In this document: one piece after another, positions 15,641 through 39,828 of the stretch
Layout of the letters: every line of letters begins with the position of its first letter
Numbering within the stretch: position 1 is the stretch's first letter
NCBI GenBank assembly: GCA_947449135.1
Contig: CANFQO010000006.1
Span: forward strand, 1 to 64,000
Source of the DNA: Planctomycetaceae bacterium
GTDB lineage: Bacteria > Planctomycetota > Planctomycetia > Pirellulales > UBA1268
Reading direction: 5' to 3'
Length of the DNA: 64,000 bases
Notes under the pieces: model-generated
What the model saw: the letters and a program-made list of their open reading frames with translations, nothing else
The model's database searches: none
What the model was told of the DNA's origin: nothing
Translations under genes and position numbers: made by a program

Positions 15641-15693
15641 GCGGGAAGGTGCTCGCACCCGGAGTCCCCCGGCTTCCGCCAGGGGCTTTTATT
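15641..15693 (-). repeat. palindromic repeat unit C, inverted
   Basis: Inverted copy of the same element. GGCTTCCGCC-AGGGGCTTTTATT at 15671-15693 is nearly the reverse complement of the start of unit B (18 of 21 positions), and the similarity continues outward through GTCCC and CGGGAA. Transcribed through, units C and B would form a long stem. Confidence 0.75.
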
Positions 15694-15731
15694 CAAACGG
15701 TGCGTTCCCCAAACCGGCTGCAGCATCCACA

Positions 15732-15787
15732 AATAAAAGCCCGGAGCGGAAGCGATGGGACACCGGACCGTTGGGCTTTTCCCGGGA
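15732..15787 (+). repeat. palindromic repeat unit B
   Basis: Third copy, same orientation as unit A. It starts AATAAAAGCCCGGAGCGGAAG and ends GACCGTTGGGCTTTTCCCGG. The 29-base GGGACACC...TTTTCCCGG segment (15757-15785) matches 15599-15627 at all but two positions. Confidence 0.8.
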
Positions 15788-35824: not shown

Positions 35825-37999
<2,175 letters not shown>

Positions 38000-38042
38000 T
38001 GCAACGCACCTCGGACCCGATTCTCCGCTTGCTGCAGCAAGG

Positions 38043-38072
38043 ATTCTACTACCCCGAGCACTTAGGAGTTAA
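38043..38072 (-). promoter_or_regulatory. candidate sigma-70 promoter of module 4
   Basis: On the minus strand TTAACT (38067-38072) and TAGAAT (38043-38048) are spaced by 18 bases, about 44 bases before the ATG at 37999. Four of six -35 and five of six -10 positions match consensus. Confidence 0.45.
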
Positions 38073-38096
38073 CTGTTTCGAATGCAGATTCCGTGA

Positions 38097-38301
38097 GGGG
38101 CTGACCGGGCCCCAAGAGCCGGCGTTGCTGACAAGCGCAGGCAGGCTGCCGGAGCGCAGTCAGCATCGAGTGAGCGGAGGCGGTGCCATGAGCCGGGCTT
38201 CGCCCGGCGAACGTAAGCCGGAGGCGACGCCGGGACGGCGGCGACGGCGCGAAAGCCGCAAGGCCATAGCGAACGTCCGGCGATGGGGTTCGGTCAGCCC
38301 C
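38097..38301 (+). ncRNA. candidate structured RNA or palindromic mobile element, unknown class
   Basis: Lies in the 410-base gene-free stretch 38000-38409. Its ends (38097-38114 and 38284-38301) can form an uninterrupted 18-bp stem; 16 pairs are Watson-Crick and two are G-U only if the plus strand is transcribed. Inside are an arm TGCTGAC-AA-GCGC...GCGC-A-GTCAGCA (38126-38165), a perfect GCCGGGC-TTC-GCCCGGC hairpin (38192-38208), and further GC-rich palindromes to about 38265. No known RNA class was recognised: core sequences of tmRNA, RNase P, SRP and 6S are absent. It may instead be a non-autonomous inverted-repeat element. The rest of the gap holds the module-4 promoter and nothing else evident. 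Confidence 0.4.
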
Positions 38302-38409
38302 GAACCGCCGCCAAATTGTGAGGTGCAAGCGTCAACTATTGGATGCTCCCCGTAGGAACACGGTCCACGGCGTCTTCCGAAGAGCCCGACGGTTGACGAT
38401 CCGGCTCGT

Positions 38410-39828
38410 CTACCCCGGCAGATATTTGGTTGTGGACGGCTTTGGGTCGATGATCGCCGCTGCCTCGGGAAGCCCCACGGCAGAGCAGGTGGCCGCATCC
38501 CACGCGATCGGCTGCTGCATCCGCAGGGCCAGCACGCCGAGCATGCCCACCTCGGTGATCCGGGCGCCAATTTCAAACGGCGAATAGGTCTTCGCATTGC
38601 CGGCACAGGCCAACACCCACTCAAACATGTGGGAGTTGTTGACCTTGCTCCACCGCGGCCGCTCCCCCTTTGCCACCCGGGCCGGATCCCACTTGAGTGT
38701 TTCGGTATCGATTCTCGGCTGTGTCTTTTCGAGCCTTGCCACCTCCGGCTGATCGGCTCCGCGAAACTCATCCGCCCCCTTCAGCCGCACCTGGCAGTCG
38801 GTGTTCCACAGTCCGGCCGACAGCGTTCCCTCGGTCCCCACCAGCATGCAGCCGGTCGATCCGGCCGCTCCGCGCGTCACCTCCTCCGGCGGAGGATTGT
38901 CTTTGCCGGAGTGGAAAAAGACCTTCACTGCGCCGCGGTCGCCCTTGGGGGCGAAGTCGTAGCGGATCGTGCAGCGGGTGGGATACGACTCATGCCCCAG
39001 ATCATCCCCAGTCGCTTCGATCCGCGTGGGGGCATCGAGGTCGAGTGCCCGGTAAGCCAACTGAAACCCGTGGCAGCAGAAATCGGCGATCGACCCGCCA
39101 CCGAAGTCGTACCAGCCCCGCCAACTCCCTGGATGGTAGATGCCTGCCTTATAAGGACGGGCCGGCGCCGCTCCGAGCCAGAAGTCCCAGTCGAGCCCTT
39201 CGGGAATCGGATCGCTATCTGCGGGGCGGTCGACTCCATTGGGCCAGCCATGCGCCGGATGCCAGACATGCACTTCCCCGATCGGCCCGAGCAGCCCCGA
39301 CCGCACCACCTCGAAGCTGCGTCGAAACCCTTCGGTCGAGCAGCCCTGATTGCCCGTCTGTGTCGCCTGCCCGGGATGATCGATCGCGAGCTTCTCAAGT
39401 GCCCGGCATTCGGCCACCGAATGCGCCAGCGGCTTCTCACAATAGACATGCTTGCCAGCGGCGAGCGCAGCTCGGCAGATCGGCACATGCCAGTGGTCGG
39501 GCGTGCCGATGATCACGCCATCCACACCGCTTTCCTTCGTCAGCAGGTCGCGGTAGTCGGCATAGACCCGCGCCTCTGCGAGTTCCCCCATCTTCCGGGC
39601 GACCTCGATCTGCTGCCGGTCGACATCGCAGATCGCCACGATCTGCTGATCGAGCTTGGCCAACTCCGGCACCAGATAGTTCCGCATCTGGCCCCCCATG
39701 CCGATGCAAGCGAACGTCAGCGGCTTGTCAGCCGATCTCTCTACTGCCCGTGACATGCAGGCGGGCAACGCCGCGGAGGCGACGGCGGTCGATTGGACAA
39801 AACGACGACGGGAAAGCAGACGCGACAC
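38410..39828 (-). CDS. Gfo/Idh/MocA family oxidoreductase, Tat-exported
   Basis: A 472-residue protein. The Tat-type signal LLSRRRFVQSTAVASAALPA opens the protein. The Rossmann domain begins with KPLTFACIGMGGQMRNYL and has VDGVIIGTPDHWHVPICRAALAAG and VYCEKPLAHSVAECRALE, the EKP motif of the family. The substrate-binding domain follows, including CCHGFQLAYRALDLDAP. Members oxidise or epimerise sugars with NAD(P). The GTG start at 39828 is supported by GGAGG six bases upstream. It is divergent from the sigma factor gene, with a 247-base gap containing two GGATCCTCGA direct repeats (39858-39867, 39886-39895). Confidence 0.92.
   Translation of the reverse strand: MSRLLSRRRFVQSTAVASAALPACMSRAVERSADKPLTFACIGMGGQMRNYLVPELAKLDQQIVAICDVDRQQIEVARKMGELAEARVYADYRDLLTKESGVDGVIIGTPDHWHVPICRAALAAGKHVYCEKPLAHSVAECRALEKLAIDHPGQATQTGNQGCSTEGFRRSFEVVRSGLLGPIGEVHVWHPAHGWPNGVDRPADSDPIPEGLDWDFWLGAAPARPYKAGIYHPGSWRGWYDFGGGSIADFCCHGFQLAYRALDLDAPTRIEATGDDLGHESYPTRCTIRYDFAPKGDRGAVKVFFHSGKDNPPPEEVTRGAAGSTGCMLVGTEGTLSAGLWNTDCQVRLKGADEFRGADQPEVARLEKTQPRIDTETLKWDPARVAKGERPRWSKVNNSHMFEWVLACAGNAKTYSPFEIGARITEVGMLGVLALRMQQPIAWDAATCSAVGLPEAAAIIDPKPSTTKYLPG

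Follow-up and report, generated by a model that had tools for sequence, protein, structure and literature searches.

The 205-nt segment at positions 38097-38301 of the window (the whole 64,000-nt stretch of DNA analysed here) is an expanded copy of a dispersed repeat of about 131 nt, and not a single-copy RNA gene. Searching its own draft assembly (3.69 Mb, 169 contigs) with the segment gave about 40 scored places, and a covariance model based on copies of the repeat from different genera found at least 51 copies at E ≤ 0.001 in the same genome.

Distribution of the repeat and fold of the window copy

The usual form of the repeat is 131 nt long. A search of planctomycete genomes, as the sequence-only reading had proposed, matched the covariance model in 32 of the 36 genomes and 11 of the 12 genera of the GTDB family, many genomes having 50-75 or more copies each, several 1-9, and four no detectable copy. 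Other families of the same order gave no match (0 of 23 genomes), and the phages, plasmids and viral contigs searched gave zero. Comparison with Rfam returned no family at gathering score and only chance-level matches at E > 0.2. Among the matches listed, the contigs with the core pattern were all labelled as planctomycete MAGs, several of which are probably mislabelled at genus level. The family-specific repeat is present on contigs of MAGs named as Candidatus Kuenenia stuttgartiensis and Planctomicrobium piriforme, names that are probably wrong. As far as searched, the repeat is limited to one family of freshwater planctomycetes living in lakes. MAG contigs often ended inside a copy (e.g. 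G000:C7:79336-79466 and G002:C72:8-139); since the repeat breaks short-read assemblies, the copy numbers are lower bounds.

The window copy had a minimum free energy of -122.6 kcal/mol, whereas shuffled versions averaged -96.7 (sd 4.4; z -5.9), and none of 200 shuffles was as stable; the minus strand folded more weakly (-113.9). The computed fold bore out the unbroken, bulge-free outer helix proposed from the sequence (38097-38114 with 38284-38301; 17 bp plus A-U), including the G-U pairs on the plus strand at 38108-38109 with 38289-38290. Both proposed internal arms, 38126-38165 and 38192-38208, were also present, but the latter is part of a module of about 80 nt that most family members lack (Table 1). 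The flanking feet are short and conserved: the 5' foot pattern occurred at 39 sites in the source genome (reversed-pattern control, 1) and the 3' foot pattern at 44 (control, 0).

Table 1. Parts of the copy in the window and the evidence for each.
Feature	Position	Strand	Evidence
Entire element, a 205-nt expanded form of the ~131-nt repeat	38097..38301	+	own-genome search, alignments
Outer stem P1, 5' side, also inverted terminal repeat	38097..38114	+	fold; family compensatory changes
Outer stem P1, 3' side	38284..38301	+	fold; family covariation
Inner stem P2, 5' side (GCCGGCGTT)	38118..38126	+	fold, covariation
Inner stem P2, 3' side (AACGTCCGGC), within highly conserved block AGCGAACGTCCGGCGA	38272..38281	+	conservation, covariation
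Arm 1 (P3): TGCTGAC/GTCAGCA stem, GNA/GNA internal loop, apical hairpin	38126..38165	+	fold, alignment
Arm 2 (P4), apical tip swapped for module A	38166..38271	+	own-genome search, alignment
Module A insert, ~80 nt, holding the 38192-38208 hairpin	~38182..38261	+	own-genome search, alignment
Conserved 5' foot TCCGTGA	38090..38096	+	flank conservation
Conserved 3' foot GAACCG	38302..38307	+	flank conservation

The neighbouring genes, a PSD1/PSCyt gene with its start at 37999 and a GFO/IDH/MocA oxidoreductase gene with its stop at 38410, both lie on the minus strand, so that the divergent promoter assigned to this site in the sequence-only reading was mistaken. When window positions 37848-38309 were compared with contig C117 of genome G004 (locus L078), the PSD1 gene there had a short-form copy upstream, and gene order broke exactly at the 3' end of the element, which suggests a rearrangement at the repeat. 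Elsewhere in the window, positions 15658-15766 showed 78% similarity to the 5' flank of another copy (L011) and are probably another dispersed repeat.

Covariation, strand asymmetry and arm modules

The family architecture consists of a closing stem and two similar arms. Across 106 aligned matches, 96.2% of the pair cells were standard pairs, compared with 85.1% after shuffling and 35-41% with slid partners. Double changes occurred in 29 of the 43 pairs, and compensatory double-change cells numbered 423 against 115 expected from shuffling; because shuffling keeps relatedness, the covariation argument rests on the slid control and on how many pairs have varied. In the outer stem, where compensatory changes had been suggested as the check, 15 of 17 P1 pairs showed them across the family. 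G-U pairs outnumbered A-C cells on the plus strand by 146 to 21, leaving out six of the 106 alignment rows that were weak reverse-strand matches to already counted copies, and by 58 to 6 and 50 to 7 in sets selected without the core pattern. Of 125 copies, the plus strand was the more stable of the two in 95% with RNA parameters and in 98% with DNA parameters. On this comparative evidence, the fold is selected on the plus strand only.

The window copy is 205 nt long because module A takes the place of the arm 2 tip. Missing from the standard 131-nt form, module A sits in either arm of other copies, as does a shorter module B. Both arms share the motif GC-GNA-GGC(C)-loop-(G)GCC-GNA-GC. At loci L348-L367 of G041, the copies are preceded by another hairpin module (CCGGCCGCAG...CAGGCCGTCC) that varies in a compensatory manner, and full copies have partial ends, left and right, nested around them. 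Other palindromic repeats, GGTTGAAAACCTGTGCTAC and GACAGGCTGAAGCCTGTCCCAC, adjoin copies in related genomes (L095, L108, L053, L107).

Placement, replication polarity and turnover

Copies lie at the 3' ends of genes and keep clear of divergent promoters. With gene context approximated by a simple codon-based gene caller, the intergenic regions with an element were 56 convergent, 80 tandem and 6 divergent, versus 19, 127 and 77, respectively, among those of at least 100 bp without one; as the loci were picked for having elements, these counts describe placement and not density. In tandem regions the element ran in the direction of the genes 36 times and opposite to it 42 times. Divergent sites being few and either orientation being used, copies are kept off promoters but not arranged relative to transcription. 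Flank conservation gave no conserved promoter beside the copies. A role as intrinsic terminator was rejected, as no U-tract follows the stem and, in tandem regions, half of the copies run antisense to the preceding gene. Of the structured plus-strand RNA proposed from the sequence, the one-strand fold therefore stands, with covariation and the excess of G-U over A-C in its favour, while a dedicated ncRNA gene finds no support in the genomic context, because copies face either way with respect to the genes beside them and the locus has no divergent promoter pair.

Relative to replication, by contrast, copies are strongly oriented, with the plus strand on the C-rich (lagging) strand. GC skew of the flanks along the element plus strand was negative (intercept -0.0147 +/- 0.0027), independent of gene direction. 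In the source genome, 28 of 36 copies followed this negative-skew rule; the skew test was significant, whereas contig-level concordance by itself (13 of 17) was not. Following the first skew result, orientation was tested in other genera: on five long contigs of G007, with 20-kb flanks, 18 of 20 copies were oriented against the skew, and 40 of 41 listed copies of G041 lay on the contig-majority strand (contigs with two or more). On contig C21 of G041, orientation was uniform despite a weak, sign-changing skew. In each of G000, G007 and G041, the G-rich strand carries the ribosomal L14 gene, and the copies on the same contigs mostly point the opposite way. The leading strand was set from the position of L14 and from the sign that GC skew usually has, ribosomal genes being taken as co-directional with replication; on this premise, the element plus strand coincides with the lagging strand, and the complement of the plus strand lies on the template for lagging-strand synthesis. 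Gene direction alone does not mark the leading strand here, because long ORFs of G007 lean to the C-rich strand.

The MITE-like alternative offered in the sequence-only reading came nearer the truth, in that the family is high-copy and dispersed, but no target-site duplication at fixed offset was detected in 157 flank pairs. Like a MITE of a DDE-type IS, the element has terminal inverted repeats (17-18 bp), but an autonomous IS with the same ends was not found: the conserved ends paired at 131-208 bp spacing in the draft genome, with no ORF-sized pair around a gene in an assembly whose contig ends could hide one. No transposase, reverse transcriptase or other partner of the element was identified. 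Copy presence and absence between congeners was found, although no insertion junction could be read precisely, because the intergenic DNA of congeners is too diverged to align. One orthologous tandem intergenic region of genus g7 holds a copy in G041 and G019 and is empty in G010. The G041 copies were 99% identical to one another and 74% identical to those of G019; G019 and G010 copies were more diverse. At the site orthologous with G041, the G019 copy is of the G019 subtype. The homogeneity of G041, together with a separate subtype at the shared site, implies overwriting or repeated turnover within genomes; copies have been homogenised in at least one genome.

Candidate explanations and relation to known repeats

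On balance, we favour a non-autonomous mosaic intergenic repeat that is kept, via its single-stranded plus-strand fold, by a replication-linked process. Such a process would copy and overwrite the repeats, handling the plus strand as a folded single-stranded nucleic acid; multiplication may be by a mobile or a gene-conversion route, and insertions would survive mainly where no promoter or gene is struck. Polarity could arise through insertion coupled to the fork, or through loss of any copy that would place its better-folding strand on the template of the lagging strand; loss would require no new enzyme for polarity but would leave amplification unexplained. Against this explanation we count that searches found neither an enzyme partner nor a readable insertion junction, that the internal arms covary more strongly than a passive hairpin needs, that the polarity may itself be under selection for a function instead of arising as a by-product, and that in the source genome contig-level concordance fell short of significance. 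It is possible, if rather improbable, that the repeat represents a new class of mobile or chromosomal element that needs a specific folded single strand (probably RNA) for its spread or function and is replication-coupled and HUH-free. If true, an HUH-free, replication-coupled element would place uniformly oriented, self-homogenising copies across a chromosome.

The covariation of nearly all helices would also be expected if the element acted as a transcribed RNA, alone or in 3' UTRs, with arms binding a protein such as CsrA via GGA loops; it would then be a sponge or an mRNA-stability element, and its dispersal the spread of an RNA gene family. The purine GNA/GNA internal loops and GGA apical loops are conserved in the family, CsrA occurs in most family genomes as several paralogues, and the plus-strand G-U preference runs against the deamination bias expected for the lagging template. 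However, orientation is indifferent to gene direction, the flanks have no conserved promoter, and CsrA is also found in every genome without the element. The loops themselves vary: arm 1 ends in GGA in 90 of 100 relatives but in GGC in the window copy, arm 2 in CGA in many genus g7 copies, and the arm 2 GGA counts are inflated because the search pattern itself selected for them. We regard an RNA role, and with it a sponge or stability function, as unlikely.

Among known repeats, REPINs, BOX and ERIC come closest. REPIN/BIME elements (REP doublets) are high-copy and intergenic, with inverted ends, a single-stranded DNA or RNA fold, compensatory changes and mosaic arrangement (PMC3116915, PMC6006769). 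The repeat resembles them in its inverted ends, single-strand hairpin, high copy number, extragenic sites and mosaic arrangement, and differs in its longer multi-branch core with covarying internal arms and its strong replication polarity. Movement of a REP/REPIN-type element as single-stranded DNA by a Y1 (HUH) transposase would fit the inverted ends, hairpin, short conserved feet, lack of a fixed target-site duplication and replication-linked orientation, and the source genome has one Y1_Tnp gene. That gene, however, is not adjoined by an element, and Y1_Tnp (RAYT) was undetected in at least seven copy-rich genomes that are at least 93% complete (G010, G015, G017, G019, G039, G044, G046), so that REP/RAYT is not a general driver now. 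The conserved foot is TCCGTGA or RCGA, not a tetranucleotide of the GTAG/CGTC type, and the folded plus strand is on the leading-strand template, opposite to the prediction of lagging-template HUH transposition. REP/RAYT membership thus fails on the tested features, and Y1-driven movement is improbable. Equally improbable is a polar chromosomal mark, one orientation of a long folded site being kept for a role in replication, segregation or repair akin to that of KOPS or Chi: orientation is near-uniform along contigs, copies are homogenised within a genome and the repeat is retained over 11 genera, but KOPS and Chi are short motifs that work in duplex form and show no covariation, and family genomes with no detectable copy or only 1-9 speak against such a service.

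For the favoured replication-linked, non-autonomous repeat, a REPIN/BOX/ERIC-like lifestyle is the best reading by analogy. BOX and RUP of Streptococcus pneumoniae are tightly folded and MITE-like, with paired termini, and are enriched away from promoters, BOX being modular; their reported leading-strand fraction of about 61% mirrors coding bias (PMC3049150). The repeat shares the tight fold, paired termini, MITE-like form, location away from promoters and, with BOX, modularity, but it is GC-rich, lies on the lagging strand independent of gene direction and gave no target-site duplication signal. ERIC, a 127-bp enterobacterial intergenic imperfect palindrome, is a candidate small mobile sequence (PMC2229807, PMC2759123); by description the repeat is likewise an intergenic imperfect palindrome of similar length and a candidate small mobile sequence, but its hosts belong to a different phylum. 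As in Rfam structured RNA families, its one-strand structure covaries, though none of them matched.

In place of a single-copy RNA gene, the analysis yields a new repeat family that is intergenic, structured, mosaic, high in copy number and polar relative to replication. Bacteria commonly carry small intergenic repeats, and their means of spreading when no transposase is evident is still an open question. The present family brings together, in testable form, a one-strand structure with very good support, interchangeable arm modules, homogenisation and, in one genome, near-perfect polarity. For freshwater planctomycetes, the repeat is a family-level marker and accounts for many contig breaks in their draft genomes.
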